A program made the translations under genes and the position numbers. A stretch of 58,839 nucleotides of DNA from Candidatus Aquidulcis sp. Lineage in GTDB: Bacteria; Chloroflexota; Anaerolineae; Anaerolineales; UBA4823. The number at the start of each line of letters is the position of its first letter. The first letter of the stretch is position 1. The notes below the pieces were generated by a model. It did not search any database. It had not been told where the DNA came from and was given only the letters and a program-made list of their open reading frames with translations. Positions 10,908-27,816 of the stretch are shown here, one piece after another. The stretch is taken from the NCBI GenBank assembly GCA_020723385.1, contig DYIZ01000017.1, positions 1 to 58,839 on the forward strand, given 5' to 3'.

Positions 10908-10909
10908 GG

Positions 10910-11727: not shown

Positions 11728-14061
11728 ATGAAAACAACACACCGATCTATATTAGCCTTTATTGAAGGGCTGCTTTTGTTTGCAATTTTGATTGGGCTTA
11801 GCCTTGGTACCGGGCAACTGCCGGTTAATTGGCTATTGTGGGTGTTGTATTGTTTTTTGATTGTCTTCGCGATGACATTCGCCATGCCGATTGGAGGCGG
11901 GTATATGTCGCTGCTGCCAATGGCCTCGGTGGGGGCGTATTTGACCATGGGCCTTGTGCCGGCGGGCTGGGTTGTTTTTATTGGCTCGGTGATCCACGGC
12001 TGGATCCGGTATCGTTTTGCGGCCACGCTCGAGGTGCGTATTGCCACATCGCCGCTCCAGGCTGCCACCCTGGCTGCTTCGAATGCGGCCATCCAGACGA
12101 CCAGCGTCTTAGCGGGCGGCCTGGTCTACGAGGCTCTGGGGGGGGCGATCCCGCTGACGCAATTTGCTCCAGAAAGTATTTTTGGGGTCATCGCACTTTG
12201 TTTGGCTTATTTAATAGTCAATTATTTAATGGCGGGAATAACGATAGGGGCGCGGGGATTATTGCATCTGCGCCATTACCTGCATGCGCTGCCCCGGCTG
12301 GTTTTTTTCGAAGCTGCGCCGCTTGTATTTGTGCCATTGGTGGTATTGGTTTATACCCGCCTGGGATTCGGATTCTTTTTCCTGCTGTCACTGGTTTTCA
12401 TCGTCGCTTCATTGATCTCCTTCAGCCTGGCGCGGGCGCGCACTCGCCTGGAGAGGCGGGTCAAAGAGCTGGACAGCTTGCAGGCAGTTGGTCAGGCGCT
12501 GTCTGCCAGCCTGGATTTAACGACAATCCTGGAAGCGATCCATACCCAGGTCAAGGGGTTGATGTCCGCAGAAAATTTCTACGTAGCCCTTTACGATCCG
12601 CAAACCGATGAGGTTTCTTTTCCCCTGGCGGTTGAGGAAGGCGAGAAGAAGAAATGGCGGTCACGGCGAGCGGGCAACGGCCTCACCGAATATCTGATCC
12701 GTCGAGGTAAGCCTCTGTTGATAAACGGCAATATCCAGGAAACAGTGGCGAGCCTGGGGGTAGATCATGTTGGGCATCCGGCTCGTTCCTGGCTGGGCGT
12801 CCCTATTCGAGCCGGTGAAATCCATTTAGGCGTCATCGGTGTGCAATCTTTTTCCGAAACCAATTTGTATGACGCCTCGGATTTGGAAGTGCTGGAGACG
12901 ATTGCCGCCCAGGCGGCGGTCGCCATTCAAAATGCCCGTTTGTATGCCCAAACGGATGCTGCGCTGGCCCGGCGGGTCCAAGAACTGGATTCGATCATGG
13001 CTACCACGCGCGAAGGCATCCTGTTATTGGATCGGGAACGGCGAATATTGGCTGCAAACCGAGCGTTGGCGGCATTCCTTGGCATCGCCCAGATGGATCT
13101 CCGCAATAGATCCTTGCAGGATACCCTGCCAGGTGACGGAACATCGTTAATGTCACGAATTGGCTTTACGGAGACTGATTGGCAGGCGGAAGAACAGACC
13201 ATCGAATCGGGCAAGAAAGATCTCGTTAAGCAGACGTTTGTTGTTCCGGGGGCGCAAGAACGCCATTTCGAGCGGACGATGACGCCGGTTCGCGACCGAA
13301 CGGGTGTGATTACCGGCTGGCTGCTTTTATTCCGTGATTTGACCGAAGAAATCGAGCTGGAGCGCATGAAAGACGACATGGTTCACATGCTCGTCCACGA
13401 TCTGCGCGCGCCGCTCACGACGATGATGGGCAGCCTGGCGATGCTGGAAGAGGTGTTGGACACCATCCATACCCAGGAGGTGGACAATCTGGTTGATTTA
13501 GCGAAACGGGGCGGTGGGAGACTGTTGAGCCTGGTCAACGAGTTATTGGATATCAGCAAGCTGGAAAACGGGCAGATGCCTATTCACCCGACACTGGTTC
13601 ATCTCCATTCTTTGCTGGAGGATACGATCCACCAGTTGTCGCCCCTGGCGAGAGATGCCCACATCACGGTTGACTTGAGTGTTGAGCAGGACTTGCCTTT
13701 ACTGACAGCCGATCCTGAAGTCATCGGACGGGTGTTGTATAATTTGCTGGACAACGCCATCAAATTTACCCCCGACGGCGGCCAGATTCGCCTTTGGAGT
13801 TGTGCGGACCCAGGGAGTGATGAACCCAGATTGTTAGTGGGCGTCAGCGATTCTGGCCCCGGTATACCTGTGGAAGCGCAATCCCGTTTGTTCAGAAAAT
13901 TCCAACGGATACCTACGACAAAAGGGCGCAGGCGGGGCTCCGGGTTAGGATTGCACTATTGCAAGCTGGCGGTCGAGGCTCATGGGGGTGAAATCTGGGT
14001 CGAAAGTCAGGAAGGGGCGGGCAGTAAGTTCATTTTTCGCCTGCCGGTCAGGGAGATATGA
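11728..14061 (+). CDS. Membrane sensor histidine kinase (TM-GAF-PAS-HisKA-HATPase)
   Basis: A 777-residue sensor kinase. Residues 1-235 form about seven membrane helices. Next come a GAF domain (about 255-400), a PAS domain (415-540), a HisKA domain with the phospho-acceptor in MLVHDLRAPLTT (about 555), and a HATPase with N box NLLDNAIKFTP, G1 box VSDSGPGIP and G2 box GSGLGLHYCK. It autophosphorylates in response to an unknown membrane or cytosolic cue. No response regulator is adjacent, so it is an orphan unless it works with the ECF system downstream. The start lies very close to a possible promoter (TTGCAA at 11693, TAGAAT at 11714), so the mRNA could be nearly leaderless. Its TGA overlaps the next ATG. 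Confidence 0.93.
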   Translation: MKTTHRSILAFIEGLLLFAILIGLSLGTGQLPVNWLLWVLYCFLIVFAMTFAMPIGGGYMSLLPMASVGAYLTMGLVPAGWVVFIGSVIHGWIRYRFAATLEVRIATSPLQAATLAASNAAIQTTSVLAGGLVYEALGGAIPLTQFAPESIFGVIALCLAYLIVNYLMAGITIGARGLLHLRHYLHALPRLVFFEAAPLVFVPLVVLVYTRLGFGFFFLLSLVFIVASLISFSLARARTRLERRVKELDSLQAVGQALSASLDLTTILEAIHTQVKGLMSAENFYVALYDPQTDEVSFPLAVEEGEKKKWRSRRAGNGLTEYLIRRGKPLLINGNIQETVASLGVDHVGHPARSWLGVPIRAGEIHLGVIGVQSFSETNLYDASDLEVLETIAAQAAVAIQNARLYAQTDAALARRVQELDSIMATTREGILLLDRERRILAANRALAAFLGIAQMDLRNRSLQDTLPGDGTSLMSRIGFTETDWQAEEQTIESGKKDLVKQTFVVPGAQERHFERTMTPVRDRTGVITGWLLLFRDLTEEIELERMKDDMVHMLVHDLRAPLTTMMGSLAMLEEVLDTIHTQEVDNLVDLAKRGGGRLLSLVNELLDISKLENGQMPIHPTLVHLHSLLEDTIHQLSPLARDAHITVDLSVEQDLPLLTADPEVIGRVLYNLLDNAIKFTPDGGQIRLWSCADPGSDEPRLLVGVSDSGPGIPVEAQSRLFRKFQRIPTTKGRRRGSGLGLHYCKLAVEAHGGEIWVESQEGAGSKFIFRLPVREI

Positions 14062-14507
14062 GACGATATTTGTGGTTGTTCTTTTTGCTGGCGGCGGCTG
14101 CCGCCGTCTTTTTGGGAATCATCGGATTCAAGGCGTTCCGTGAGGCGAGCGTGATCGTCGAGTGGAGCACCGCCAGCGAGCTGGACACGGTGGGCTTCAA
14201 TGTCCTGCGCGGCGATGGTCCCGATGGGCCGTTCGCCCAGATCAATGATCAACTCATCCTGACCCAGGGTGATTCGCTGACCGGGAGTGATTATTCGTTT
14301 ATAGATAGAGGTGTAAAAGCGGGACTAACTTATTATTATCTGCTCGAAGATGTTGATGCCGGCGGTGCGACCAATCGCAACGGGCCAATCGAAGTCAAAG
14401 CCGAAGCTGGCGGGCGCGCCGAGCTTGGGCTGGCGGCCATCCTGGTTATCTTTTCAGTGGTCGGTATTTTGATGGTCCGGCATTCGCCCTCGGAGGCTGA
14501 GAATTAA
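14058..14507 (+). CDS. Membrane protein with one FN3-like module
   Basis: A 149-residue protein with an N-terminal signal or anchor (LWLFFLLAAAAAVFLGI), a single extracytoplasmic module (about 28-115) and a C-terminal helix (LGLAAILVIFSVVGILMV). The module pattern is W-S-T-A-S-E-L-D-x-x-G-F-N-V-L-R, then an aspartate/tyrosine-rich strand and L-T-Y-Y-Y-L-L-E-D-V-D. The same pattern occurs in the anti-sigma factor at 15939 and in the proteins at 23753 and 24608. It is translationally coupled to the histidine kinase (ATGA overlap) and is followed after 2 bases by the HprK-like kinase. No enzyme motif is seen. A role as the extracytoplasmic partner of the kinase or of the exported cluster proteins is inference. 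Confidence 0.8.
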   Translation: MRRYLWLFFLLAAAAAVFLGIIGFKAFREASVIVEWSTASELDTVGFNVLRGDGPDGPFAQINDQLILTQGDSLTGSDYSFIDRGVKAGLTYYYLLEDVDAGGATNRNGPIEVKAEAGGRAELGLAAILVIFSVVGILMVRHSPSEAEN

Positions 14508-14509
14508 AT

Positions 14510-15301
14510 ATGTCTGTTTGCGGTTTGACGATTGCAGGGATATCAGTGGCTGTCGAGACGGAGGATTCCGGCCTGACCGAAAAACTTCGGCTTCGATACG
14601 AAGATTTCCCACTTATCGGTGATCCCCAATTAATCGCCAGAATCAACTGGACGAATCTGGGGCGGCGACAACCAACCCCGGCTCCTGAAACTGTATTCGA
14701 TGGCGATCAATTGGCGTTCAAAACGCCGGGGTTCAGCGGTCTCATTGATGTCAATCGGCTGTGCGCTTGCCTCGATCTAATCTCTACCAGCCCGGTAGAA
14801 GATGTTGATTATTTTTTACGCCTGGCCTACAGTTTATTGGTTTTCAGCCGAAAAGGAATCATGTTTCACGCTGCGGGCATTGTTCGAAATGGCGCAGCTT
14901 ATCTATTTTTTGGGCATTCAGGCAGCGGTAAAACGACTGTGGCTCGACTATCCACAGGCGCTAAAGTATTGAATGATGATTTGGTTGTATTGCTGCCCGA
15001 CTCTGAGAAGTGGAAAGTGTTCAGCACACCATTTTGGAATCCAGATCAAGTCAGGCCTTCCATCGGTAGTGCGCCCCTCGCCGGTCTGTATCGCCTGGTA
15101 CAGGATCGGAATGTGTACACTGAAGCCATGCGGCCAGCCCAAGCATTAGCCGAGTTTGTCGCCAGCGTTCCTGTCATACCGACTTCCCCGCGCCTTAATC
15201 GCGTTTTGGTTGAGAGAGGTCTGTCCCTCCTGGCTTCGATCCCGGCTTGCCGGTTGCACTTCTTACCCGATGCCTCGTTTTGGCAGGTGGTAGAGGCTTG
15301 A
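14510..15301 (+). CDS. HPr kinase-like P-loop kinase (HprK-related, peptide-system type)
   Basis: A 263-residue kinase related to the C-terminal domain of HPr kinase/phosphorylase. Walker A is GHSGSGKT at residues 135-142, followed by the paired acidic motif LNDDL (D155-D156) that HprK-type kinases use for metal and catalysis. The N-terminal 130 residues do not look like the HprK N domain. No HPr or PTS gene is present. In other bacteria HprK homologues sit in lasso-peptide clusters and phosphorylate a serine of the precursor, and HprK-related kinases also pair with PqqD proteins. With a PqqD gene at 24319 and a candidate precursor at 18792, a peptide or protein substrate is more likely than HPr. 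This is inference. Confidence 0.83.
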   Translation: MSVCGLTIAGISVAVETEDSGLTEKLRLRYEDFPLIGDPQLIARINWTNLGRRQPTPAPETVFDGDQLAFKTPGFSGLIDVNRLCACLDLISTSPVEDVDYFLRLAYSLLVFSRKGIMFHAAGIVRNGAAYLFFGHSGSGKTTVARLSTGAKVLNDDLVVLLPDSEKWKVFSTPFWNPDQVRPSIGSAPLAGLYRLVQDRNVYTEAMRPAQALAEFVASVPVIPTSPRLNRVLVERGLSLLASIPACRLHFLPDASFWQVVEA

Positions 15302-15316
15302 TCCTCAAGTAGAACC

Positions 15317-15946
15317 GTGAAGAATTTGGCGCCACGAATTTTGAACCTAACCACGCCCATTTACGACTATAGTGTTAAGATGGATCATCTGCCGACGGCT
15401 GTTGGCGATCTCGAATTGTTGTCACGAACCGCCAACGACGACAAAACGGCATTTGATGAGTTATATCAACGCTACAGCCGACCTCTATACCATTACTTGC
15501 TCAGATTGATTCATGAACAACATGTTGCTGAGGATCTTTTACAAGAAGTATTCATTGCCGTTTGGCAGGGAGCACGTGGCTATCGAGGCCAGGCACAGGT
15601 AAAAACCTGGCTGTATCGAATCGCCCACAATCGAGCCATCTCATGGCTTCGACGCTACAAGGTAACCACGATTTTAGAGGATGTCGTCGAGACTTCTCGC
15701 GAGGTTGGACCAGAAGAATCAGCTATCGGCTCCTGGCAAAACGACCAGATCAGGCAGGCTGTCAACCAACTACCGTTCAAACATCAGGAAGTGCTGGAAC
15801 TTGCTTTTGTTCACGAACTAAGCTATACCGAAATCGCGAATGTGATTGGATGTCCGGTTGGTACAGTGAAAAGCAGGATGAGTTATGCACTTCGAATGCT
15901 CAATGGCCTGTTAAACAGAATGAACTTTACCCCCCTTCATGAGTAG
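15317..15946 (+). CDS. ECF-type RNA polymerase sigma factor
   Basis: A sigma-70 family regulator of about 209 residues (188 if ATG 15380, MDHLPTAVGDLELL, is the true start; neither has a strong ribosome site). Region 2 is clear: AFDELYQRYSRPLYHYLLRL, then EDLLQEVFIAVWQGA and the -10 recognition part RGQAQVKTWLYRIAHNRAISWLRR. Region 4 (about 145-200) has QAVNQLPFKHQEVLELAFVHELSYTEIA and the helix-turn-helix IGCPVGTVKSRM. It directs polymerase to a small regulon and is held inactive by the product of the next gene, whose start overlaps its end by 8 bases. Its target promoters probably include this cluster, but no promoter motif was deduced. Confidence 0.93.
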   Translation: MKNLAPRILNLTTPIYDYSVKMDHLPTAVGDLELLSRTANDDKTAFDELYQRYSRPLYHYLLRLIHEQHVAEDLLQEVFIAVWQGARGYRGQAQVKTWLYRIAHNRAISWLRRYKVTTILEDVVETSREVGPEESAIGSWQNDQIRQAVNQLPFKHQEVLELAFVHELSYTEIANVIGCPVGTVKSRMSYALRMLNGLLNRMNFTPLHE

Positions 15947-16652
15947 ATGTGACGTTATGATACTTAAACAGATCATCTCAAAATCTAAAGGCTACCGCCG
16001 ATTATTACCTTGGTATATCGCTGGACGATTGTCTCCCAAAGAGAACCATTTGGTTGAGCAACAGTTAATCCAAGATTCTCAACTGCGGAGACAAGCCGAA
16101 ACAATTCAGGTTTATTATTCGGCGCTGAAGGAACAACCGATGGAAGCCCCCGCTCCCATTGTTCGGCAGCGGATTATGGCGGCGATCAATCGAGACACCG
16201 TTGCAGCCAGGCGAACCAACCCTCTGGTGCTCTACCCGGCAGCCTTGATGTTGGCCTTTGCCGTTTTGATTGTCTTATGGATGGTGATCCGGCCCGGAAA
16301 TGTACTCGAATGGACCGTTACCGATCTGGGCATCCAAGAATTCCAGGTATATCGTGCGCCATTGGGCGGCAGCGATTTCGAATTGGTGAGCACAATCCCC
16401 GTTCGATCGCAGAAGGTGCAATATACCTTTGTAGATGCATTGTTGATCCCGGGCCAAAGTTATACTTACCTTGTGAAAGGCGTTCAAAGTTCTGGGCAAT
16501 CTTTATTGAGCCAGACCATCGCTGCGGATGGAGCCGATGCGCTCATGGGACAAATTCTATTAATTTTGACGAGCCTGGTTGTCGGCTATTTGGGCGTCAC
16601 TCTCGTCCAAAACTTTCCATTGACTGTGCGGAAGGAATTATCCCCGGTATAA
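15939..16652 (+). CDS. Anti-sigma factor with extracytoplasmic FN3-like module
   Basis: A 237-residue membrane protein overlapping the sigma gene by 8 bases, the usual layout of a cognate anti-sigma factor. Residues 1-90 are cytosolic with the helical anti-sigma pattern LLPWYIAGRLSPKENHLVEQQL. The zinc-binding H-x3-C-x2-C signature is absent. A helix (about 94-112, YPAALMLAFAVLIVLWMVI) crosses the membrane. The outer part (115-200) is the cluster's FN3-like module (EWTVTDLGIQEFQVYRAP, then SYTYLVKGV). A second helix lies near the end. The same module in exported cluster proteins suggests it senses them or a shared partner. That link is inference. Confidence 0.8.
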   Translation: MSRCDVMILKQIISKSKGYRRLLPWYIAGRLSPKENHLVEQQLIQDSQLRRQAETIQVYYSALKEQPMEAPAPIVRQRIMAAINRDTVAARRTNPLVLYPAALMLAFAVLIVLWMVIRPGNVLEWTVTDLGIQEFQVYRAPLGGSDFELVSTIPVRSQKVQYTFVDALLIPGQSYTYLVKGVQSSGQSLLSQTIAADGADALMGQILLILTSLVVGYLGVTLVQNFPLTVRKELSPV

Positions 16653-16752: not shown

Positions 16753-18438
16753 ATGAAAATCGTACGTTCCGCCTTACTCATTTCGATCATCATGAGTATG
16801 CTTTTCACGGGGGTTGCATTCGCTGAGCCTGAAAGCCCCGAAGCTCTCTATTCGTTTACAATGACACCGGCATCTGGCACATATCCAGGTCAGGAGATTA
16901 CCTTCAACGTTGACTGGAGTACCAATACCCAATCGGCTGCCGGAGATGGCATAGCGATATGCGTTTACTACGACGAGGCTTATTCCAATACCCCAGGACG
17001 AACAGACGATGGCTTTACCGGCGCGCCAGCCGACATTCTCTCACTTGGCTTTGGCGATGCTTACACTAAAATTGGCCCGTCAGCTTTGAGTCTGGGCGCT
17101 GGCCCTGGCAGCGGCGCTACTCAAGCCTGCCCGGCGTGGACTGGGAAATATGTGACCGGATATTATATTGACGAAGCAGGCAACGGAGGGTCATTAGGCG
17201 CGAGTGATCCAACGGATGCGCTCGAATTCACGATCATTTCACCTCGCCTTGTTGCCGATGAGAGTTTTACGGTAAGGCAGCGTAAAAATGTTGATGATTC
17301 TAATGACAATATCTGGTCGGCGATTGGCTTCAAAACCGCGAATCTGGATGTCAATCCAGCGGCTTTACTGGTTTTTGTTGGCACACCCGTGCAATGCGGT
17401 GCGAATGTGCCCTGCTACGATACGGTCGAAAATGGCATAGTTTACGTGGCAGATGGTGGCGCGGTCCGCTTGATGGGCGCCTCGACCGGCAGTGTCGTTG
17501 TTGATCGCGGAATGACCATTCAAGGTGGCGCATCGGCTGCTTCGATCACTGGCGACGGCGACCCCACCATCGAGGTTGATGCCAGTGGTGAGACGGTTAT
17601 CATTCGGGATTTGCAGATCAATGCCGCTTCTGGCCAGCCAGCGATCAGTGTACTCGCTGGCGATGCGGTGGTCAAAGGGAATACCATTGATGCCAACACA
17701 TTGACGGCTTTTTCATACACTGCCGGCACGCTGCATGCCTATGCCAACAATGTGACTGACCTGGGCACAGCCTCCGATACCACCTCCACGAATGTCAATC
17801 TCAAACACAATTGGTGGGGAGATGCCTGGACATCGCCGACTGGTCTCGTTGCCTCCGATTGGGCTGCCCGCCTGGGAGCGCCAATGGTCAAGTGGGCAGA
17901 TGGCGTCAATAGTGTCAACCTGGATGGCGCTACCCTGAGTGGAGGTACAGGCACAGTCGCCATTGTCAGTCATGACCGCAGTAACCCCCCCTTCGGCAAT
18001 GGCATTACGCCGTTCCAAAGCTCGATGTGTGGGCCGTATCTGGATTACTTCCTGGTCAGCGGTTCAGGCTCCTGGACAGTTGCCGCGCCGGTGGATGATA
18101 GCGCCGCCTGTAATTTGAATACCCGTGATCCTGGGGTAATTTACATGGTCAACACCATTGCTGAGTGTACTCCCTCGACGAATACCGCTTGCTGGGATCG
18201 GGTCACTACTGGCGTCAGTGTCAGTGGGCAGACGATCTACGCGGCTGGCATCTCAACAGCTCAGTTGGGCGGCACGCAATTTGTTGTTGGCTCAACGAGT
18301 GGCAGTGATCCAACCGTGATTCAGTTACGCAGCATGTCTGCTACATCAGCCCGCAACACCTGGCTGCCAATGATCCTCCTCGTCTCAGCGCTCCTTTTAG
18401 GAGGCAGCGGTTTATACCTTGCCCGTAAGGCGAGATAA
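16753..18438 (+). CDS. Exported beta-helix-like protein with C-terminal membrane anchor
   Basis: A 561-residue exported protein with a clear AGGAGG-like site (GGAGG at 16743) and signal peptide (LLISIIMSMLFTGVAFAEP). Residues 30-190 form a beta-sandwich-like region with a calcium-type acidic pattern. Residues 230-380 resemble right-handed parallel beta-helix rungs (GNTIDANTLTAFSY, NNVTDLG, LKHNWWGDAW). Paired cysteines (CGANVPCYD, CTPSTNTACWD) occur. The end is LPMILLVSALLLGG, a membrane helix, then RKAR. That arrangement resembles a cell-wall or membrane sorting tail, with the LP dipeptide in place of a full LPxTG. It may be the structural surface protein served by the cluster. No catalytic motif is recognised. 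Confidence 0.75.
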   Translation: MKIVRSALLISIIMSMLFTGVAFAEPESPEALYSFTMTPASGTYPGQEITFNVDWSTNTQSAAGDGIAICVYYDEAYSNTPGRTDDGFTGAPADILSLGFGDAYTKIGPSALSLGAGPGSGATQACPAWTGKYVTGYYIDEAGNGGSLGASDPTDALEFTIISPRLVADESFTVRQRKNVDDSNDNIWSAIGFKTANLDVNPAALLVFVGTPVQCGANVPCYDTVENGIVYVADGGAVRLMGASTGSVVVDRGMTIQGGASAASITGDGDPTIEVDASGETVIIRDLQINAASGQPAISVLAGDAVVKGNTIDANTLTAFSYTAGTLHAYANNVTDLGTASDTTSTNVNLKHNWWGDAWTSPTGLVASDWAARLGAPMVKWADGVNSVNLDGATLSGGTGTVAIVSHDRSNPPFGNGITPFQSSMCGPYLDYFLVSGSGSWTVAAPVDDSAACNLNTRDPGVIYMVNTIAECTPSTNTACWDRVTTGVSVSGQTIYAAGISTAQLGGTQFVVGSTSGSDPTVIQLRSMSATSARNTWLPMILLVSALLLGGSGLYLARKAR

Positions 18439-18459: not shown

Positions 18460-18487
18460 CCCCTCGAGGATTTATCTCCTCGAGGGG
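18460..18487 (+). terminator. Probable terminator hairpin after the beta-helix gene
   Basis: Perfect 11-bp stem CCCCTCGAGGA / TCCTCGAGGGG with a 6-base loop, 22 bases after the stop codon. The trailing U-tract is weak (CTTATCAATT), so termination may be incomplete. Confidence 0.65.
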
Positions 18488-18714: not shown

Positions 18715-18743
18715 TTGCGAAGTCCAGAAAAATAGGATAGAAT
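18715..18743 (+). promoter_or_regulatory. Candidate sigma-70-type promoter for the small peptide gene
   Basis: TTGCGA at 18715-18720 and TAGAAT at 18738-18743 with a 17-base spacer, about 49 bases before the peptide start. The 350 bases after the preceding terminator are AT-rich and otherwise hold no gene. A second TTGACA at 18671-18676 lacks a good -10 partner. Confidence 0.5.
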
Positions 18744-18791
18744 AACAAAACACTATTTGGTAATAATCAGGAATCTTTGGAGGAGACCCAT

Positions 18792-18947
18792 ATGATGACA
18801 CAACTTATCGTGAACCAGCCGACTGACCTTCGAAAACCGTACTCGAAGCCAGAAATTATTCATGAATTGGATCTGGAGACACGCGCCGGCTCAACACTTC
18901 CTGGCTTCGTTGATCCGCTCGATCCGGCTTCTGGCCTGCAAGAATAA
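18792..18947 (+). CDS. Candidate modified-peptide precursor, 51 residues (lasso-leader-like motif)
   Basis: Short gene with a strong ribosome site (GGAGGAG, 18779-18785); ATG 18792 or the adjacent ATG 18795. The translation holds KPYSKPEIIHELDLE at residues 15-29, then TRAGS and a Pro/Gly/Asp-rich tail ending GLQE. The YxxPxI core (Y17, P20, I22) matches the leader motif that PqqD-like RRE domains bind in lasso peptide precursors. If the core starts at G33, D41 is its ninth residue, the spacing of a Gly1-Asp9 lasso ring. Thr is at -3 and not the usual -2. No cyclase is nearby, so ring formation is unsupported. The HprK-like kinase, PqqD gene and C25 peptidases flank it. It could also be a small structural or signalling peptide. 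Confidence 0.75.
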   Translation: MMTQLIVNQPTDLRKPYSKPEIIHELDLETRAGSTLPGFVDPLDPASGLQE

Positions 18948-18975
18948 ACTTTATAATAATTTTATAGTTGATCGG

Positions 18976-19076
18976 GGCCAGGTGGGCCTCAGTGCTAGCG
19001 AGAATGACTCATTATTGGGAAATTCTCGCCCACGAGAGAACCCCTGGCCTTCCGCTGTTAATAACGGACTTTTATT
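18976..19076 (+). terminator. Long structured RNA and weak terminator between peptide and peptidase genes
   Basis: Nested stems: GGCCAGG (18976) with CCTGGCC (19043), GTGG (18982) with CCAC (19030), and GCGAGAAT (18998) with ATTCTCGC (19022). A smaller hairpin around 19051-19066 is followed by CTTTTATT. It would let the short peptide message be abundant while passing limited read-through into the C25 gene at 19091. Confidence 0.5.
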
Positions 19077-19090
19077 GATATAGGTGCGCG

Positions 19091-22000
19091 ATGAAAAGAC
19101 ACATGTTGATGCGATGGGTTTCGTTGATTGTACTCCTTTCAGCTTTGCTCAATTCGTCAGGGCCGGTTGAAGCAAAACGATCTCAACCAGGGGGTTTCCG
19201 GGTCGCCCAATCCAACGAGCGAGGAATCATCTTGAGTTTGAGCGTACCTGTGGAGCAAATTGCATTTCAACAGGTTGAAAACTTTGATAAGGTCACATTG
19301 CCGGATTTCGATACGACAACTGATCCGGGCAAGCCGCAGTTGCCGGTCTATCACGCGCTGATTGGAGTTCCTCCAGGCGCGCAGGTGTCCTTATCAATTC
19401 TTCAAGATGTCACTCAGATATTTCCTGGAAAATACAATCTATCGCTTGCGCCTGCGCCTGCGCCGCTGAAAGAAGATTTGACTCCGGGTCAGTGGCAATC
19501 AGTTGTATCACCGCTCGTGGCTTCCACTGAAACTGTCTATCCTCCCAACCTGGCCGAAGTATCTCGTGACGCCTGGCTGCGGGATTGGCATTTCGTCCGG
19601 CTTTCGCTTTACCCCCTCCAATATGATGCCCTACAGGGCCGGGTAACACTTCATTCCTATCTCGAAGTATCGGTGGATTTCATTGGAGGCGATAGTCTGG
19701 CGGTTTCAGCGACCCCCTCCGGTCAGGATTCGTCGGATCCCATAGATTCTATGATGCAGGAATCCCTTCTTAATTATGATGTCGCACGAAACTGGAAGGG
19801 ACAAAAGCCCGTGTCCAATCTCGAGCAAACCGCCGTCAGCGGTCAGCGCTATAAAATCACTGTTGACCGGGATGGCCTGTATCGTGTGACTTATGCCGAT
19901 CTACAGAGCGCCGGGATGAACGTGGCTGCAGTTGACCCGCGTACCTTTCATCTTTCGAGCCAGGGGGACGATGTGTCAATTTATGTCGCCGGGGAGGATG
20001 ACGGGAGCTTCGACCCGAGCGATTACATCATCTTCAACGGCCAACAATTCTATGGCGACCGGCTTGCCGCCGCCCATCCCGATGAGGATTTGAATTGGAT
20101 TACTTACACCGAACAGCTCACAAACGGTGTTTATACCTACTGGCATCCGCAGTTCAACGCCACGATGGCAGAAAAGTACACCAACGACAATGTGTATTGG
20201 TTGACGGAGGGTGGCGCCCCGGGTCCCCGTATGGCGGAAGTAAATGGAGACCCGACCGGAAGTACCGCACCCACGCCCGCTGTGTACCGAACAACCGTCC
20301 ACGCTGAGCGTTCGACCCGCTGGTGGACGTGGCATTTCACGGATGAAGATACCTGGTATTGGGAAGTCGTTACCAATAATACAACCCGCTTCTATACGAC
20401 GACACTGACATCGGTTGCCTCTGGCGCTTATACGGCAACGATCCGGGGAGAGGTGGTTGCCATGAACACCAATGACAACCTGCCGAACGATCATCATACC
20501 CGCGTGAGCATTAATAATGATCCTCAGCCGGTGGATGAGGCATATTGGGAAGGGAAATCGCGCTATCGTTTCGAAGGGCAGGCTCCGCAATCGAGCCTTG
20601 TCGAAGGCGTCAATTCGCTGAAATTCACTTATCTGCCGGATGGCGCTACCCCGCCTCCCATTTATTTCGACTGGTTCGAAATCGAGTACGATCGCCGCTT
20701 TTTAGCCGCCGGTAACCAGATTGCCTTTACCGGAGAGCATACCGGCGAATGGCAATATGCCCTGGGCAATTTCAGCTCTGCGTCTGTCGAAGTTTACGAT
20801 GTGACCGATCCCCTGGATCCGATGCGGGTGCTGAACCCAGTGATAACCTCTTCCGGGGGCGTTTATACCGCTACCTTCGAGATCAATCAGGCCGCGGGTT
20901 CGCAGTATCTCGCTGTGGCCCCTCAGGCCATCCTGTCGCCGAAAGCCATCACTTTCTACGATCCCCCCGATCTCAAATCGGCTTCCAACGGCGCCGACTA
21001 CATCGTGATCACCCATCCGGCGTTTCTCACACCGGCCCAGGCGTTGGCAGATTTTCATACTGCTCAAGGGCTGCGTACCCTCGTCGTAGATATCAACGAT
21101 GTTTTCAATGAGTTCGGTGAAGGCATCTACCACCCGATTGCGATAAAGAATTTCCTGGCGTATGCTTATTCCGTTTGGCAGTCTCCTGCACCAGTTTACG
21201 TGGTTCTGATCGGTGACAGTACCTGGAATTTCAAGGTCTTCAACCCGGCGCGCTATGGCTCAGAGCCAACCTATCTGCCCGCCAACCTCGGGTTCGTGGA
21301 TCCCTGGCAGGGTGAGGTAGATGCTACCAATCAACTCGCCACGATCGTTGGCAGCGATCCGCTTCCCGATGTTTATATGAGCCGCATTCCGGCTTCCAGC
21401 GTTGCTGAGGCGACTGCTGTCGTGAACAAGATTATTGGTTACGCAGGCCAGCCATCCCAAGACTGGCAACGCAATCTGGCTTTCGTGTCCGATAATATCC
21501 CCGATGATGCTGGCGATTTCCAGGCTTCTGCCGAGGCTTTGATCAATAATTTCGTGGCCCCCGGTTTTCAGCCGAATCGAGTTTATGAAACCGATTACTG
21601 CCCGCCGACGGATCCGCCGACGCCTTGCCCCGCAGCAACTCATGCCCTTACCGAGACTTTCAACGTCACTGGCACTCTCCTGATGTCATTTGTCGGTCAT
21701 GGAGCGCCTCAACGTTGGACGCATGAAAACCTGCTCACGAATGATGTTGCTGTACAACTGACCAATGGCGGCCAACTGCCAGTTATTCTCTCAATGACTT
21801 GTATGGATGGCTATTGGATCGGCCCGCATGGACCGCAATATGTTCAAGGGCCATCCCTCGTCGAGGCGCTGATTAACGGGGCCGATAAAGGTGCTGTGAG
21901 CACATTCTCCCCTGGCGGATTGGGCCTGTCTACCGGGCACGATGCTTTGGCCGATGGTTTCTACGGTGCGATCTTTGATACCGGCATCTGGCAGCTTGGC

Positions 22001-23740
22001 CCGGCAACCGTGGCGGCCCGCCTGGGCGTCTTTGCCACCGGGAATGATGGCGACCTGATCAATACCTACAATATCTTCGGCGATCCGGCTTTGCGGCTGC
22101 ATAGTCCGTATGATTTGACACTGAATCCGCCCTTAGCCGCCCAGTCAGCTATGACCGGAGATGTAGTAACTTATACACTTTCTCTTGCCAATACGTCTGC
22201 TATTACCGATACCTTCGATGTGACTTTGGGCAGCCATGCCTGGACAACCTCTGCCCCGGCGGCTGTGGGTCCGCTGCCTCCAGGTGATTCGGTTTCTTTG
22301 CTTGTCGAGGTGCAAATTCCCACGGGTCTGTCTGGCGGTGCAACCGATGTGGTACAGGTAACTGCCACTTCGCGCGGCGATATCAGCAAAACCGCCAGCG
22401 CGCAATTGACAACCACTGCCGATGTCTACGGTTTATCGTTACGCCCGGCCGTTGACTCTCGGACGGCGTTACCTGGCGCAACGGTAACTTATACACTGCA
22501 ACTCACCAACACCAGCAATACCGCGGATACCTTCGACATCGCTGCCGGCGCGCACACCTGGCCCGTTAATGCGCCCATCTCGACAGGGAGCCTCGGTCCG
22601 GGAGACAGCGCAGAGTTGATTGTCACGGTTGAAATCCCGATCTCGGCGCAGGATTACCAATCCGAGACCCTGGTCATTTCAGCCACTTCCCAGGCTGACC
22701 CCCTCCGGTTGGCGACCTCGACATTGACAACAACCACCCGGTTGTATGATGTTTCTCTGGCTCCAACCCAAATTAGTCAGAGTGGATTGCCCAACACACA
22801 AATTGTCTATCACCTTCAATTGACCAATACAGGCGGATATAGCGATTCCTTTGATTTGGATGTGGCTGGAAATCAGTGGGCGACCACCATCATCCCGCCA
22901 TCGCTTGGGCCGTTACTGCCTGATCAAGCCGCGCCTGTAACGGTAACGGTGAACATCCCATCGGGGGCTTTGGGCGGCGTAACCGATGTCGTGACTGTCA
23001 CCGCCGCCTCAACCGGCTATCCCGCATTACAAGCCCAATCTATACTCATGACAACCTCCAATGTTTTTGGGGTGGACGTTACCTCGGCTGCAACCGCGCA
23101 AACTGGCGCGCCCGGCAGCTCCGTCTTTTACAATCTGCGCGTGTGGAACCTGGGCAGCGCCTCGGATCAATTCGATATTTCGATGGGAACTTATGCCTGG
23201 CAGACTGACGCGCCATTATTCGTCGGACCGATTGCACCCGGGGGCAGTGAATCGATCACCGTCATGGTGACGATCCCTTCGGGTGCGGTTTCTGGCTCAA
23301 CGGATTCGGTCACCCTGAATCTGGCCTCTGCTGGCGATCCGAACCAGGTTGCCAACATCACCCTGACCACCACGGCTCGGCCTTATGGTGTTACGGTGAC
23401 GGCTGATACGACCAGCCAGGATGGAAACCCTGGCGGCGAAGTGATATACTCCCTCCAGGTGACGAATATCAGCGTTTACACCGACACATTTACGGTGCTG
23501 GTGAGCGGTCCGGGCTGGCCGACCAACCCCGACACACTGACCATTGGCCCGTTGGGTCCGGGGGATGCGGTGACATTACTGGTCACGGTGCAAATCCCTG
23601 CCGATGCGCTTTCCGGCTCGTCTGATGTGGCGACGGTCAAAGTTGTCTCGTGGGGCTATGGCAGCCAATCGGCGCAGGTGGTGTTGACTACAACGGCTTT
23701 GATCTCCAATCGAGTATACTTGCCGATTGTCATCCGATAG
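19091..23740 (+). CDS. Large secreted C25 (gingipain-like) cysteine peptidase with five NEW3-like repeats
   Basis: Exported 1549-residue peptidase of clan CD, family C25. A signal peptide (residues 1-28) is followed by a C25 propeptide-like region (to about 240), a beta domain with GLYRVTYADLQSAG, and the catalytic domain (about 630-1000). The catalytic histidine is H870 in FVGHGAPQRW and the nucleophile is C904 in SMTCMDGYW, the expected HG and C pair. YVVLIGDSTW near 700 matches the Rossmann-like core. From about 1006 there are five repeats of about 100 residues, each with G-x-x-V-x-Y-x-L-x-x-x-N and LGPGDS strands (NEW3/CARDB-like). The chain ends NRVYLPIVIR. It is 144 bases downstream of the small peptide gene. 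Substrate and any sortase-like role are unknown. Confidence 0.9.
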   Translation: MKRHMLMRWVSLIVLLSALLNSSGPVEAKRSQPGGFRVAQSNERGIILSLSVPVEQIAFQQVENFDKVTLPDFDTTTDPGKPQLPVYHALIGVPPGAQVSLSILQDVTQIFPGKYNLSLAPAPAPLKEDLTPGQWQSVVSPLVASTETVYPPNLAEVSRDAWLRDWHFVRLSLYPLQYDALQGRVTLHSYLEVSVDFIGGDSLAVSATPSGQDSSDPIDSMMQESLLNYDVARNWKGQKPVSNLEQTAVSGQRYKITVDRDGLYRVTYADLQSAGMNVAAVDPRTFHLSSQGDDVSIYVAGEDDGSFDPSDYIIFNGQQFYGDRLAAAHPDEDLNWITYTEQLTNGVYTYWHPQFNATMAEKYTNDNVYWLTEGGAPGPRMAEVNGDPTGSTAPTPAVYRTTVHAERSTRWWTWHFTDEDTWYWEVVTNNTTRFYTTTLTSVASGAYTATIRGEVVAMNTNDNLPNDHHTRVSINNDPQPVDEAYWEGKSRYRFEGQAPQSSLVEGVNSLKFTYLPDGATPPPIYFDWFEIEYDRRFLAAGNQIAFTGEHTGEWQYALGNFSSASVEVYDVTDPLDPMRVLNPVITSSGGVYTATFEINQAAGSQYLAVAPQAILSPKAITFYDPPDLKSASNGADYIVITHPAFLTPAQALADFHTAQGLRTLVVDINDVFNEFGEGIYHPIAIKNFLAYAYSVWQSPAPVYVVLIGDSTWNFKVFNPARYGSEPTYLPANLGFVDPWQGEVDATNQLATIVGSDPLPDVYMSRIPASSVAEATAVVNKIIGYAGQPSQDWQRNLAFVSDNIPDDAGDFQASAEALINNFVAPGFQPNRVYETDYCPPTDPPTPCPAATHALTETFNVTGTLLMSFVGHGAPQRWTHENLLTNDVAVQLTNGGQLPVILSMTCMDGYWIGPHGPQYVQGPSLVEALINGADKGAVSTFSPGGLGLSTGHDALADGFYGAIFDTGIWQLGPATVAARLGVFATGNDGDLINTYNIFGDPALRLHSPYDLTLNPPLAAQSAMTGDVVTYTLSLANTSAITDTFDVTLGSHAWTTSAPAAVGPLPPGDSVSLLVEVQIPTGLSGGATDVVQVTATSRGDISKTASAQLTTTADVYGLSLRPAVDSRTALPGATVTYTLQLTNTSNTADTFDIAAGAHTWPVNAPISTGSLGPGDSAELIVTVEIPISAQDYQSETLVISATSQADPLRLATSTLTTTTRLYDVSLAPTQISQSGLPNTQIVYHLQLTNTGGYSDSFDLDVAGNQWATTIIPPSLGPLLPDQAAPVTVTVNIPSGALGGVTDVVTVTAASTGYPALQAQSILMTTSNVFGVDVTSAATAQTGAPGSSVFYNLRVWNLGSASDQFDISMGTYAWQTDAPLFVGPIAPGGSESITVMVTIPSGAVSGSTDSVTLNLASAGDPNQVANITLTTTARPYGVTVTADTTSQDGNPGGEVIYSLQVTNISVYTDTFTVLVSGPGWPTNPDTLTIGPLGPGDAVTLLVTVQIPADALSGSSDVATVKVVSWGYGSQSAQVVLTTTALISNRVYLPIVIR

Positions 23741-23752
23741 CCCGCAGGCTTC

Positions 23753-24169
23753 ATGAAGATTGTCCACCGGGTTCTCCCGATCCTCATCATGATTGTTGCA
23801 CTCCTGGCATTTGCCACGAGTGCACGCGCCAATGTGACGCTTGTCAGCTTCACGGCTGCTGCCGAAAACGATCATGTTCTCGTCGGGTGGGTCACCGCCT
23901 CCGAGTTGAATAACGCTGGGTTCAATCTTCATCGCAGCCTGTTGCCAGATGGCCCGTACCAAAATATCAGTGGTTTCATCGTCACCCAGAGCGACGGCTT
24001 TTCTGAAACAACTTATGAATTCCCAGACACTACGGCGGCGCTGGGTAACACATACTATTACAAACTCGAAAGCGTCAGTACGACGGGAGACTCGCAGTTC
24101 ACCGAGCCAATCTGGGTTGTCTATGCAAACGACGACAATCCTATATACTTGCCAATCATTCGCCGTTAG
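23753..24169 (+). CDS. Small exported FN3-like protein with YLP tail
   Basis: A 138-residue exported protein with signal peptide LPILIMIVALLAFATSARA and one FN3-like module: VLVGWVTASELNNAGFNLHRS, then FSETTYEFPDT and NTYYYKLESVS. It ends NPIYLPIIRR, a version of the tail found on the large C25 peptidase 12 bases upstream and on other secreted proteins here. It is highly similar, including at the DNA level, to the first 115 codons of the gene at 24608, so the two are tandem paralogues with the PqqD gene between them. It may be an accessory binding subunit of the peptidase. No catalytic residue is seen. Confidence 0.82.
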   Translation: MKIVHRVLPILIMIVALLAFATSARANVTLVSFTAAAENDHVLVGWVTASELNNAGFNLHRSLLPDGPYQNISGFIVTQSDGFSETTYEFPDTTAALGNTYYYKLESVSTTGDSQFTEPIWVVYANDDNPIYLPIIRR

Positions 24170-24318: not shown

Positions 24319-24594
24319 ATGATTTCGATCAATGCCACCCCGCTCCACAACCCGGAAGTCGTTGGACGCACTGTCGAAGGTGAGACAGTGTTGGTGCTGC
24401 CCGGTAAAGGCGAAGTCAAAGTTTTGAACGAGCTTGGCTCGCAAATTTGGACACTGGCCGATGGAACACATACTGTGGCCGAGATTGCGGTGCTATTGAG
24501 TGAGTCCTACGCGGTTGATCGTCTCCAGGCCGAGGCAGACGTTCTGGAATTCGTCGCTTTACTCGAAGAGAAGGGGGTTCTTTCCCTCGTGTGA
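24319..24594 (+). CDS. PqqD family protein (RRE-type peptide-binding domain)
   Basis: A 91-residue PqqD-like protein, start ATG 24319. PqqD domains are RiPP recognition elements that hold the leader of a precursor peptide and present it to a modifying enzyme. The family pattern is visible: an N-terminal strand (VVGRTVEGETVLVLP), EVKVLNELGSQIWTLADG, the winged-helix part HTVAEIAVLLSESY, then VLEFVALLEEKGVL. It is a free-standing domain, as in lasso peptide B1 proteins, not fused to a radical SAM enzyme. In this cluster the likely client is the YxxP-containing peptide at 18792 and the likely partner is the HprK-like kinase at 14510. Both links are inferred. It sits between two FN3-like paralogues. 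Confidence 0.9.
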   Translation: MISINATPLHNPEVVGRTVEGETVLVLPGKGEVKVLNELGSQIWTLADGTHTVAEIAVLLSESYAVDRLQAEADVLEFVALLEEKGVLSLV

Positions 24595-24607: not shown

Positions 24608-25588
24608 ATGAAAGCTCTGCTCCGGCTTCTCCCCATTGTTGTCCTGATTGTTGTGCTGCTGGCTTTTGTCACGACTGCTCGCGCCAATGTGACACTGGTC
24701 AGCTTTACTGCCGTTGCCCAAACCGGACAAATCCTCGTTCAATGGGTCACCGCCTCCGAGCTGAACAACGCTGGCTTCAATCTTCATCGCAGCCTGTCGC
24801 CGGATGGCCCCTTCCAAAATATTAGCGGCTTTATCGTTACCGAGAGTGATGGTTTTTCTGAAACTCATTATGACTACCCAGACACCTCGGCGATACTGGG
24901 CAACACCTACTATTACAAACTCGAAAGTGTGGATACCTCAGGCAATTCCGAATTTACCGCCCCGATTTTCGCTGTTTATGGCACACAGGTCGCGGCGAGT
25001 ACTGCTACTGCCACCGCCACACGCACCCGAACTCCTACGCCAACTACAACCGCCACCATTCCCGCTGGGAATCCTACCAATACGGCCACAGCAACCTCTC
25101 CCCTAAATAGCCCAACTCCGACATCGTCAGCTACCGCCACTGCCACATCTGCTACTTTCACACAGACGCCAACTTCCACTGCAACCGGTGTTCCCGGCCA
25201 GCCCACCCCCTCACGAACGGCCACGCGTACTGCCACTATCGCCGGGTCAACGCCCAATATCAGCCCATCCCCTACCACCGGGACTTCGACAGCGGCTGCA
25301 ACGAGCGCTACTGCGACAGACTCCACCCCGCAAGGCCCCACCCGCACCGCTACCCTGATCCCCTTGCCTTCGTTGACTTTGATCTTCCCGGCTTACTCAC
25401 CGACTCTATCCCCGACAGTTGCACCCTCCGCCACACCCACTGCCACTCACCTGCCTACGGCGACGCCCACATTGGTTGGGCCAGGAGGTGTTCCTTCACG
25501 CATCTACACCCTGATCGGAGCGGCGGCTTTGTTGTGGATACTCCTGGGGGGATTCCTGCTCTTCTTCTTGCGTAGAATGACTCGCTGA
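24608..25588 (+). CDS. FN3-like surface protein with mucin-like Thr/Pro stalk and C-terminal anchor
   Basis: A 326-residue exported protein: signal peptide (LLPIVVLIVVLLAFVTTARA), one FN3-like module (about 25-115, nearly identical in pattern to the gene at 23753), a long Thr/Ser/Pro/Ala-rich stalk (about 120-285), and a C-terminal helix with basic end (AAALLWILLGGFLLFFLRRMTR). The stalk would span the wall and is a likely O-glycosylation target; a GT-C glycosyltransferase follows two genes on. The helix plus RR-x-x-R tail resembles a sorting or stop-transfer signal. The stop codon overlaps the start of the C25 lipoprotein gene (TGATG), so the two are coupled. Confidence 0.82.
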   Translation: MKALLRLLPIVVLIVVLLAFVTTARANVTLVSFTAVAQTGQILVQWVTASELNNAGFNLHRSLSPDGPFQNISGFIVTESDGFSETHYDYPDTSAILGNTYYYKLESVDTSGNSEFTAPIFAVYGTQVAASTATATATRTRTPTPTTTATIPAGNPTNTATATSPLNSPTPTSSATATATSATFTQTPTSTATGVPGQPTPSRTATRTATIAGSTPNISPSPTTGTSTAAATSATATDSTPQGPTRTATLIPLPSLTLIFPAYSPTLSPTVAPSATPTATHLPTATPTLVGPGGVPSRIYTLIGAAALLWILLGGFLLFFLRRMTR

Positions 25589-27816
25589 TGGTACCTCGCC
25601 TGACTCTGCCCCGATTGTTGGTGTTCTTTGAACGCGCCGCATTGTTGCTTGTGGTAACGGCCTTATTAGCCGCATCCTGCAACCGGACGACCGATACGCC
25701 CTCACCGGAGCCGCAGCTTACTTCGGGGGCGGTCAAGCTGGCGGTGAAAGAGGCTGGCCTTTACTCGGTTACATCGTCTGATCTGCGGGCGGACGCGCCC
25801 TCCCTGGCTGCCGCGGACCCCGCCCGGCTGGTGTTGTCTCTGCGCGGGCAGCCGCAGCCTTTGTGGGCGGAAGGTGAACCAGGGGATTTCACTTTGCGCT
25901 TCTACGGCCAATCGCCCGATTCTCGCTATACCGCCCAATCCAACTACTGGCTCGAAATCAAGCCGACCGGTGAAATCACCCCAACCACGGCCTGGGAACA
26001 GCCCGCCGGCGCGTCAGTGTCCACCCCGGTTGACGCCTGTCTGGCGATGGAACGGTTGGAGCAAAACCTGGTTTACGCCCCTCAAGCCGAATCCGGCGAC
26101 CACTGGTTCTGGCAATCCCTGGCTGCCCCCAAAAACCAGCCCTTCGAGGTGACGTTGGCCCACGCGGCAGCCGGAGCCGGGCGCGTGCGCGTCGCCGTAT
26201 GGGCCAGCACCTCCGCGCCGGTCAATCCCGATCATCATTTGCAGGTTCTCATCAACGGCCAGGTGGTCGCCGACGAAAGCTGGGATGGCAACGGGCGGCG
26301 TACAATCGAAGCCGATGTGCCGGCTGGCGTGCTGGTTGACGGAGCGAACGCGGTAGAGCTGGCGCTGCCGGGAGATACCACCGCCCCGGCGGACATCGTT
26401 TTCGTGGATTGGATCGAGATCGAATATCCCCGCACGGCGGAGGCGGTCAATGACCGGTTGGACTGCGCCGCGGGCGAGTCTCCCCTGAAACTGACTGGCT
26501 TCGATGATGAGATATTTCTACTGGATATAACCGACCCCTACGTCCCGGTGCGCCTCACCGGATTGCAACCGGGCGATGGTGATGTAATTTTCCAGGGTGA
26601 GCCAGATCATCGCTATCTGGCCGCGGGGTCAAAGGGGATGCTGAAACCGGTGGAGATCGCCGCCCCCAGGCTTTCCCCCGATCTGCGCGCCGCTTCCAGC
26701 GCCGCCGATTACCTCGCCATCGGGCCGGATGACTTGCTCGCGCCGCTCGATCCCTTGCTCGCCTTGCGCACATCCCAGGGCTTGCGCGTGATGTCTATCC
26801 CGCTGCAAGCCATCTACGATCAGTTCAATGACGGCTTTCCCGAGCCGGAAGCCATTCAAAAATTCCTGGCTTTTACCCATCAATCCTGGCAGACGGCTCC
26901 CCGCTATGTGATGCTGGTCGGCGACGCCACCTACGATCCGCGCGGCTACCTCGCTCCGCCAGATGCTAACCGTCTGCCAACCTTTTTTATCCAAACAGTT
27001 TTCGGCGGCGAGACCGCCAGTGACGTGCTGTTTGCCCAGCTCGACGAGGACGGTTTACCGGATGTCGCCATCGGGCGCGTCCCGGCGCGTTCCGCGGCGC
27101 AGGTGCGGTCGCTGGCGACGAAGCTGCTGGCCTACGAGCAGGCTGCTCAGAATACCGAGCAGGCTGCTCAGAATACCGAGCAGGCTGCTCTGGACAGCGA
27201 GCAGGCCGCCGGCGGAGAATCGTGGACCCGGCGGGTGCTGGCAGTCTCCGATGGGAACGACACCAGCTTCGCCGCCGACGCGCAGACCTTTTTAGATCAA
27301 TTGCCAGACGGGTTCGAGTCCACTTTGTATTCTCCGGCAGCGGGCGCGGTGGATGCGAACGCCGAAATCACAAAACACCTGGACGAGGGCGTCTTTTTTA
27401 TGGCGTACTTTGGGCATGGCAGTATGGTCATGTGGGGCAAAGACCGCCTGTTTTCAACGGAGGACGCGGCCAAACTGAGCAACACTCATTTGCCGTTGGT
27501 GATGAATATGAGCTGCCTGACCGGGCTGTTCACCCACCCGAAGCAGGAATCGCTCGCCGAAGTGCTGCTTTTCCAGCCTGATGGCGGTGCAGCCGCGGTG
27601 CTGGCGCCCACCAGCCTGACGCTGCCCACCGACCAGGCGATGCTCTCCGGCCCCCTGGCGCAGGCCCTCGGGCAGGATTCTGCCGCAACCGTGGGCGAAT
27701 GGCTGCTTCAGGCGCAGCGTCAAACTCCGCAAAATCAAGATGGCGTGCGCGAGGTGCTGCTGACCTTCCTCCTGTTCGGCGACCCGGCGCTGAGGCTGGC
27801 GCAGTCTACACCGTAG
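25588..27816 (+). CDS. C25 (gingipain-like) cysteine peptidase, lipoprotein
   Basis: A 742-residue clan CD peptidase. The N terminus has a hydrophobic segment and a lipobox-like end LLAASC, so the protein is probably lipid-anchored outside the membrane. A C25-type beta region holds GLYSVTSSDLRAD. The catalytic domain (about 370-730) has YVMLVGDATYDPRG, H610 in YFGHGSMVMWG and C643 in NMSCLTGLF. Unlike the paralogue at 19091 it has no NEW3 repeats and no YLP tail, which makes it a candidate membrane-bound processing enzyme. PorU, the sortase of the type IX system, is also a C25 protein, but no type IX gene is present here. A 7-residue tandem repeat lies at about 517-541. Confidence 0.88.
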   Translation: MVPRLTLPRLLVFFERAALLLVVTALLAASCNRTTDTPSPEPQLTSGAVKLAVKEAGLYSVTSSDLRADAPSLAAADPARLVLSLRGQPQPLWAEGEPGDFTLRFYGQSPDSRYTAQSNYWLEIKPTGEITPTTAWEQPAGASVSTPVDACLAMERLEQNLVYAPQAESGDHWFWQSLAAPKNQPFEVTLAHAAAGAGRVRVAVWASTSAPVNPDHHLQVLINGQVVADESWDGNGRRTIEADVPAGVLVDGANAVELALPGDTTAPADIVFVDWIEIEYPRTAEAVNDRLDCAAGESPLKLTGFDDEIFLLDITDPYVPVRLTGLQPGDGDVIFQGEPDHRYLAAGSKGMLKPVEIAAPRLSPDLRAASSAADYLAIGPDDLLAPLDPLLALRTSQGLRVMSIPLQAIYDQFNDGFPEPEAIQKFLAFTHQSWQTAPRYVMLVGDATYDPRGYLAPPDANRLPTFFIQTVFGGETASDVLFAQLDEDGLPDVAIGRVPARSAAQVRSLATKLLAYEQAAQNTEQAAQNTEQAALDSEQAAGGESWTRRVLAVSDGNDTSFAADAQTFLDQLPDGFESTLYSPAAGAVDANAEITKHLDEGVFFMAYFGHGSMVMWGKDRLFSTEDAAKLSNTHLPLVMNMSCLTGLFTHPKQESLAEVLLFQPDGGAAAVLAPTSLTLPTDQAMLSGPLAQALGQDSAATVGEWLLQAQRQTPQNQDGVREVLLTFLLFGDPALRLAQSTP
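27136..27210 (+). repeat. 21-bp tandem repeat inside the C25 lipoprotein gene
   Basis: Two exact and two partial copies of a 21-base unit beginning GAGCAGGCTGCTCAGAATACC, encoding EQAAQNT. It inserts a flexible, Gln/Ala-rich loop into the peptidase domain and can expand or contract without breaking the frame. Confidence 0.85.

Follow-up and report, generated by a model that had tools for sequence, protein, structure and literature searches.

A conserved short peptide gene in Anaerolineae looks like a phosphorylated-peptide precursor and neighbors C25 peptidases and tailed secreted proteins

What is made from a 51-codon reading frame that stands between the gene for a secreted protein and the gene for a gingipain-like peptidase? 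The frame occurs in a 58,839-nucleotide stretch from Candidatus Aquidulcis sp. (Chloroflexota; Anaerolineales; contig DYIZ01000017.1), referred to here as the window. The first-pass annotation, made from the letters alone, had marked it as an overlooked gene for a lasso-type precursor in which a nine-residue macrolactam ring would join Gly33 to Asp41. Two questions follow: whether the frame is a gene, and what its product becomes.

The reading frame (18792..18947, + strand; MMTQLIVNQPTDLRKPYSKPEIIHELDLETRAGSTLPGFVDPLDPASGLQE) is a real gene, as relatives in other genomes, profile matches and purifying selection all attest. A protein search of the 301 genomes of the order with the 51-residue sequence found relatives in other genomes with a best E of 2e-10, and a profile built from these relatives (A1) gave 50 matches in 27 of the 301 genomes. 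One match from the first search, G123:C462, was false: it comes from an ABC transporter gene read in a different frame. Outside the order the peptide is rare: a 400-genome sample of the phylum, which includes the source genome, added two matches. Database relatives are Anaerolineae or Chloroflexota MAGs, and no plasmid relatives were found. Among the peptide genes, pN was smaller than pS in 665 of 666 pairwise codon comparisons and dN/dS was ~0.03-0.46 in close pairs, which indicates that the gene is under strong purifying selection. The conservation and selection of the family rule out a chance reading frame. A ribosome-binding site, GGAGGAG (18779..18785, +), lies 6 nt before the ATG at 18792 and is recognizable in most relatives; this site, the coordinates, the length and the positions of Y17-x-x-P20-x-I22, T30, G33 and D41 are as first described. 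The proposed promoter TTGCGA-17-TAGAAT (18715..18743, +) is present too, but it is weak evidence because it matches only 9 of 12 consensus bases and four such sites were found in the region against 1.5 expected by chance. No Pfam or NCBIfam model matches the peptide, and its sole match among solved structures is a chance leucine-rich one. The peptides form a so far undescribed Chloroflexota family, whose members look like precursors of phosphorylated peptides. Between the gene and the peptidase gene that follows it lies a strong RNA hairpin (18974..19050, +; z = -4.1), for which Rfam gave no match.

The peptide divides into a conserved leader and a variable, acidic tail. An alignment had been proposed as a check on YxxP, G33 and D41, and it kept the first two: YxxPx[IVLF] occurs in 39 of 40 relatives and in all 40 sequences the Gly of Ala-Gly stands exactly 16 residues after the Tyr, while the acidic position is not fixed. 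In the window the predicted RRE-binding motif is Y17-S-K-P20-E-I22 (codons 18840..18857, +) and the leader/core junction is L28-E-T-R-A-G-S34 (codons 18873..18893, +); the peptide reads YSKPEIIHELDLETRAGS. Ala-Gly is followed by Ser or Thr in 38 of 40 peptides (Ser in 34, Thr in 4), and the Ala is preceded by Arg or Lys in 30/40, with Thr two positions before it in 32/40. The tails are acidic and every core among the 40 lacks Cys. The first-pass annotation had named conservation limited to the N-terminal half in unrelated contexts as a point against the gene; conservation does run from the leader to Ala32-Gly33-Ser/Thr34 and then stops, yet the contexts are not unrelated. In the register of lasso leaders, Ala32 is likelier than Gly33 to be core residue 1. 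Thr30 had been described as lying at a non-canonical -3 from Gly33, which is where it is, but if Ala32 is residue 1 it takes the usual -2 position, Ser34 therefore falls at core position 3 and Asp41 becomes residue 10. Cleavage would come after Arg31 in the Ser3 register of lasso peptides and LPPs, with cleavage after Thr30 or after Ala32 also possible, and Ser34 is the predicted phosphosite provided that Ala32 is residue 1.

The neighbors give these residues a context. On the + strand the window encodes, in order, an FN3-like membrane protein, an HprK-like kinase (263 aa, 14510..15301), an ECF sigma factor (15317..15946; Pfam Sigma70_r2 and r4), an anti-sigma factor, a tailed secreted protein, the peptide and C25 peptidase a, followed by an FN3-like protein, a PqqD-family protein (91 aa, 24319..24594), a second FN3-like protein and C25 peptidase b. 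Relatives have the same gene set plus an S24/S26 signal peptidase between the C25 and PqqD genes, and kinase, RRE, signal peptidase and two C25 peptidases form a conserved cassette in most peptide genomes. Counting strong matches to the window-type kinase, kinase and peptide each occur in 27 of the 301 genomes, 25 of them shared, with two having the peptide only and two the kinase only (Fisher p = 6e-32, a value that overstates the co-occurrence because the genomes are related to one another). Genus g3 has a cassette with no peptide of its own and carries its peptides elsewhere in the genome (L088, L089, L090, L097), and one genome (G175, 87% complete) has four peptide genes and no kinase, PqqD or second C25 match. 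The window cassette has no dedicated exporter and no NTP transferase. Exporters adjoin the peptide only at L086, where a distant relative is immediately preceded by two MsbA-like ABC exporters; PF14907 (NTP_transf_5) is found elsewhere in the genome in 23 of 27 peptide genomes, the only genomes counted. Away from the cassette, the window also encodes a HEAT-repeat NACHT ATPase that has a hydrophobic segment at its N terminus (8397-10937, -), possibly a defence or signalling protein.

The PqqD-family protein (Pfam PqqD, 5.5e-17) is the predicted partner of the leader. Y17-x-x-P20-x-I22 had been read as an RRE-bound leader motif, which it fits, and the conserved cassette does contain a gene for a PqqD-type RRE, 5.4 kb downstream of the peptide. 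In LppB, N33 and D70 fix the YxxP of the leader (PMC13381572); the window RRE has Asn37 and Asp74 at the same 37-residue spacing, and among the PqqD proteins the Asn is present in 14/14 and the Asp, 37 residues away, in 13/14. The kinase keeps all kinase motifs, and its AlphaFold2 model (pLDDT 94.9) matches PEPCK/HprK folds. Its invariant residues H120, G135, G138, G140, K141 and D157 (His, Walker A and Asp) correspond to those given for BsfK and lasso kinases (PMC10368454). NCBIfam matches to ScmC/HprK-related models are weak and below cut-off, and both the kinase and the C25 genes belong to general families.

An archaeal-type signal peptidase I is found in the cassettes of most relatives and is absent from the window, which has no signal peptidase of its own. 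In the relatives the enzyme is matched by TIGR02228, the archaeal-type model (1.5e-8); Ser30 and His68 are conserved in it, and its Ser-Met, Thr-His-Arg and Asp do not vary. The source genome has three good signal peptidase matches outside the window, the best on contig C205 in what looks like a second, sister-type cluster. At loci of the G047/G050 type (L047:3578-3951, L050:6042-6506) a signal-peptidase-like protein has its catalytic Ser replaced by Cys (NCM instead of SM).

Of known systems, the closest match is the LPP (Linear Polyphosphorylated Peptide) type of RiPP, which has been reported from Bacillota only (Popov et al. 2026, PMC13381572). LPP precursors carry the motif YxxPxVLxHQxIxFETxxS; an RRE presents the leader, core Ser3 receives a phosphate from an HprK-like kinase, and the leader is taken off by a SipW-like peptidase (PMC13381572). 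LppK (PMC13381572) and BsfK (PMC10368454) both act at that Ser3 position. The window system shares with LPPs a short precursor whose YxxPx[VI] leader ends in ...ET and which, with Ala32 as residue 1, has Ser at core position 3, a discrete RRE predicted to bind YxxP through the same Asn/Asp pair, an HprK-like kinase with complete motifs, and the lack of a cyclase or B2 peptidase. The archaeal-type signal peptidase of LPP clusters has its counterpart in most relatives but not in the window. It differs in its host, which belongs to Chloroflexota and not to Bacillota, in a leader two residues shorter from Tyr to Glu-Thr, and in the addition of C25 peptidases, a sigma/anti-sigma pair, FN3-like membrane proteins and tailed surface proteins. 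Since the NTP transferase and the MsbA-like exporter of LPPs are also missing from the window cassette, we call the system LPP-like and not a member of the class. There is some likeness to SynChlorMet cassettes too: the kinase and PqqD protein weakly match ScmC (the kinase) and ScmD (the RRE), but the matches are below cut-offs and the window cassette has no radical SAM partner.

The two C25 peptidases set the cassette apart. C25 peptidase a (19091..23740, +; 1549 aa) is PorU/gingipain-like, with matches to Peptidase_C25 (1.4e-73) and Propeptide_C25 (2.6e-13), and C25 peptidase b (25588..27816, +; 742 aa) has a lipoprotein-like N terminus (Peptidase_C25, 3.4e-72). Like PorU, the C25 sortase of type IX secretion, peptidase a combines a C25 domain with a propeptide, matches PorU models over the catalytic region and is linked to secreted proteins that share a C-terminal signal. 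Unlike PorU, it falls below the PorU cut-offs (279 bits against the T9SS_sortase PorU model, where the cut-off is 420), its partners are a peptide, a kinase and an RRE, and the shared signal is a membrane-spanning segment with a basic end in place of a T9SS C-terminal domain. No paper was found that describes a C25 peptidase together with PqqD or HPr kinase in Chloroflexi, and PMC13381572 makes no mention of Chloroflexi, C25, gingipain or sortase.

The presumed cargo in the window is a secreted protein of 561 aa (16753..18438, +) that ends in DPTVIQLRSMSATSA, a transmembrane segment and RKAR (tail profile E = 5.4e-14, with its own tail in the training set). Its tail follows the shared pattern PTAVxLxx[FM]xA, a hydrophobic stretch and then Arg/Lys, and for about half of the peptides examined the gene directly upstream encodes a secreted protein with such a tail. 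With a profile made from 19 tails and run on 10 genomes, counting tails at E up to 1e-4, 23 of 32 tails had a peptide gene on the same strand no more than 600 bp downstream, usually 20-50 bp, and 23 of 30 peptide genes had a tail directly upstream; these counts are biased because the profile was trained on tails beside peptides. Eight of the peptide-linked tails lie outside the training set, and their peptides came from the independent protein search (G065:C8:82980, G065:C8:39773, G065:C2:474202, G065:C7:41609, G090:C96:5232, G074:C1:32596, G074:C13:18392 and G074:C15:53161). Nine of the 32 tails have no nearby peptide gene, some of them at contig ends, and peptides with no tail upstream mostly sit in the cassette just before C25 peptidase a. 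The cargo families are unrelated to one another (TED/SdrD_B/SpaA adhesins, choice-of-anchor K proteins, large repeat proteins and repeat-rich right-handed-helix-like proteins), and in two genomes (L022 and L023) the anti-sigma factor that precedes the peptide itself carries a terminal motif resembling the tail (PSSM p = 0.005 for each). Gene order thus links the peptide family gene by gene to tailed secreted proteins. In the window the cargo gene ends 353 bp upstream and is followed by a perfect 11-bp inverted repeat (CCCCTCGAGGA/TCCTCGAGGGG; 18460..18487, +), probably a terminator, so that here peptide and cargo are probably transcribed separately.

Taken with the LPP likeness, this suggests that the peptide is processed into a linear, phosphorylated RiPP of LPP-like kind, with a part in the sorting of surface proteins by C25 peptidases in Anaerolineae, a reading to which we give a probability of about 0.62. 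Phosphorylation, leader removal and the sorting role are its predicted elements. Residues 17-22 would bind the PqqD-type RRE, whose binding residues are conserved, and the HprK-like kinase would phosphorylate Ser34, the third core residue, as LppK and BsfK do with theirs. The leader would then be cut near Thr30-Arg31-Ala32, in most relatives by the signal-peptidase-I-like enzyme of the cassette; since the source genome encodes its signal peptidases only outside the cassette, one of these would have to act in trans there, unless a C25 peptidase cuts at Arg31. The acidic, Cys-free core may act with the C25 peptidases on secreted proteins that bear PTAVxLxxFxA, a transmembrane segment and Arg/Lys, either while these are released and anchored or as a component of whatever becomes joined to them, and the ECF sigma/anti-sigma pair may tune expression to cargo load. 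What is new here is a cassette with two PorU/gingipain-like C25 peptidases and peptide genes behind tailed secreted proteins. LPPs have been described as restricted to Bacillota (PMC13381572). The neighboring tailed surface proteins and gingipain-like proteases suggest a surface role for the peptide, the tie to both offers a concrete, testable function for LPP-like phosphopeptides, a class with no known role, and the cassette points to a system for sorting surface proteins in Chloroflexota that is so far undescribed.

Other readings have to be weighed against this one. The peptide might be no RiPP at all: left unmodified, it could be a small adaptor or regulator whose binding partner is the RRE, the kinase or the sorting machinery, and could serve a specific cargo as its chaperone or signal. 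Several genomes do have one peptide per cargo gene, at times 20-40 bp downstream, the leader is the best-conserved part of the peptide and the source cassette is without a signal peptidase. We nevertheless think such an adaptor unlikely, since a modified core is favored both by the Ala-Gly-Ser/Thr that invariably follows the leader and by a kinase whose motifs are all intact, and sister clusters with the same leader have the radical SAM enzymes and Cys cores that are typical of RiPPs. Alternatively, a secreted bioactive or signalling phosphopeptide might share operons with surface proteins for co-regulation only. LPP and paeninodin products have no assigned role and their genes lie in polysaccharide loci (PMC13381572), and the exporters at L086 would suit such a product. 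Most cassettes have no exporter, however, and the linkage tracks a C-terminal tail shared by cargo proteins of unrelated families, a pattern not expected from co-regulation alone; we regard this reading as improbable.

A bolder form of the sorting model, and in our estimate quite improbable, makes the phosphopeptide itself the acceptor, or a bridge to lipid or glycan, to which a C25 peptidase joins the cargo as it cleaves the tail, giving a cargo-specific anchor; FN3-like membrane proteins that lack strand A would hold the tails, with TAVxLxxFxA supplying the strand. The FN3-like proteins of the window come in two forms. In the membrane protein at 14058..14507 (+), identified by FNIII matches, alignment and an AlphaFold2 model (pLDDT 92), the predicted domain has no strand A and its first strand follows directly after the transmembrane helix; the anti-sigma factor (15939..16652, +; NCBIfam antisigma 1.2e-9, below cut-off) has an external FN3-like domain with the same truncated start by alignment. 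The secreted protein at 23753..24169 (+) has a complete strand A (NVTLVSFTA), and that at 24608..25588 (+) is FN3-like with a Thr/Ser/Pro linker and a C-terminal transmembrane segment. Complete versions begin NVTLVSFTA, similar to the cargo tail, and the best-scoring position of the tail motif in them is strand A. Most of the truncated proteins have no comparable match. A donor-strand contact between cargo tails and truncated domains is possible, but because the matches in single FN3-like proteins are modest (p = 0.007-0.44) we put the idea forward as a hypothesis only.

A lasso precursor of the kind in the first-pass annotation, its macrolactam closing on Asp41 from Gly33 or else from Ala32, is very improbable: there is no B2 peptidase, no cassette cyclase and no fixed ring acceptor, and on these grounds lasso cyclization is rejected as far as the genes can tell. 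Its attraction lies in the YxxPxI leader, an RRE and a kinase in the cassette, the G33-D41 spacing of nine and a Thr at -2 when Ala32 is residue 1. Phosphorylated lasso peptides (paeninodin, Bsf) do share the RRE leader motif and the HprK-like kinase, and PbaA shares the distance from Tyr to Ala and the Thr at -2 (W-15 in PbaA, PMC13381572). Unlike the paeninodin and Bsf systems, that of the window has neither B2 nor a cyclase. The source genome (96% complete) has no B2 lasso leader peptidase (PF13471), and 24 of the 27 peptide genomes have none; the remaining three encode one on a contig that carries no peptide. No peptide cassette contains a cyclase of the asparagine-synthase family; the source genome has one clear match to that family on contig C9 and a borderline one on C152. 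The acidic ring position is not kept in the 40 relatives either, an acidic residue standing at ring position 7, 8, 9 or 10 counted from the Gly in 5/40, 16/40, 15/40 and 17/40, and counted from Ala32 the Asp41 of the window is residue 10, as set out above.

The sister clusters mentioned above are related to the LPP-like cassette of the window. At L166-L178, in eleven to thirteen other Anaerolineales genomes, signal peptidase, PqqD, radical SAM enzyme, peptide, kinase and C25 genes occur together; the peptides are of the KPYxxP type with Cys in the core and the C25 proteins are 1000 aa or more. Intermediate peptides (PLEAMAGVCDPLGGG) are found with a radical SAM enzyme in G082 and G121, and 17 of the 31 weaker kinase matches have a C25 match no more than 7 kb away. 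The window type looks like a branch with neither Cys in the core nor a radical SAM enzyme. The second, sister-type cluster of the source genome is split at contig ends, L190:6985 (C205) and L179 (C218), and has a peptide reading ...KPYQKPTVTQVKLIPNENILGGC..., a kinase and a signal peptidase, then a C25 protein. On contig C102 of the same genome, short peptides of the MRYEKPTIVNLSARAANGQ type and the MKYQKPIVMNLNARA type (L104:10069 and L104:13295) adjoin PqqD-domain proteins and probably represent further RiPP clusters.
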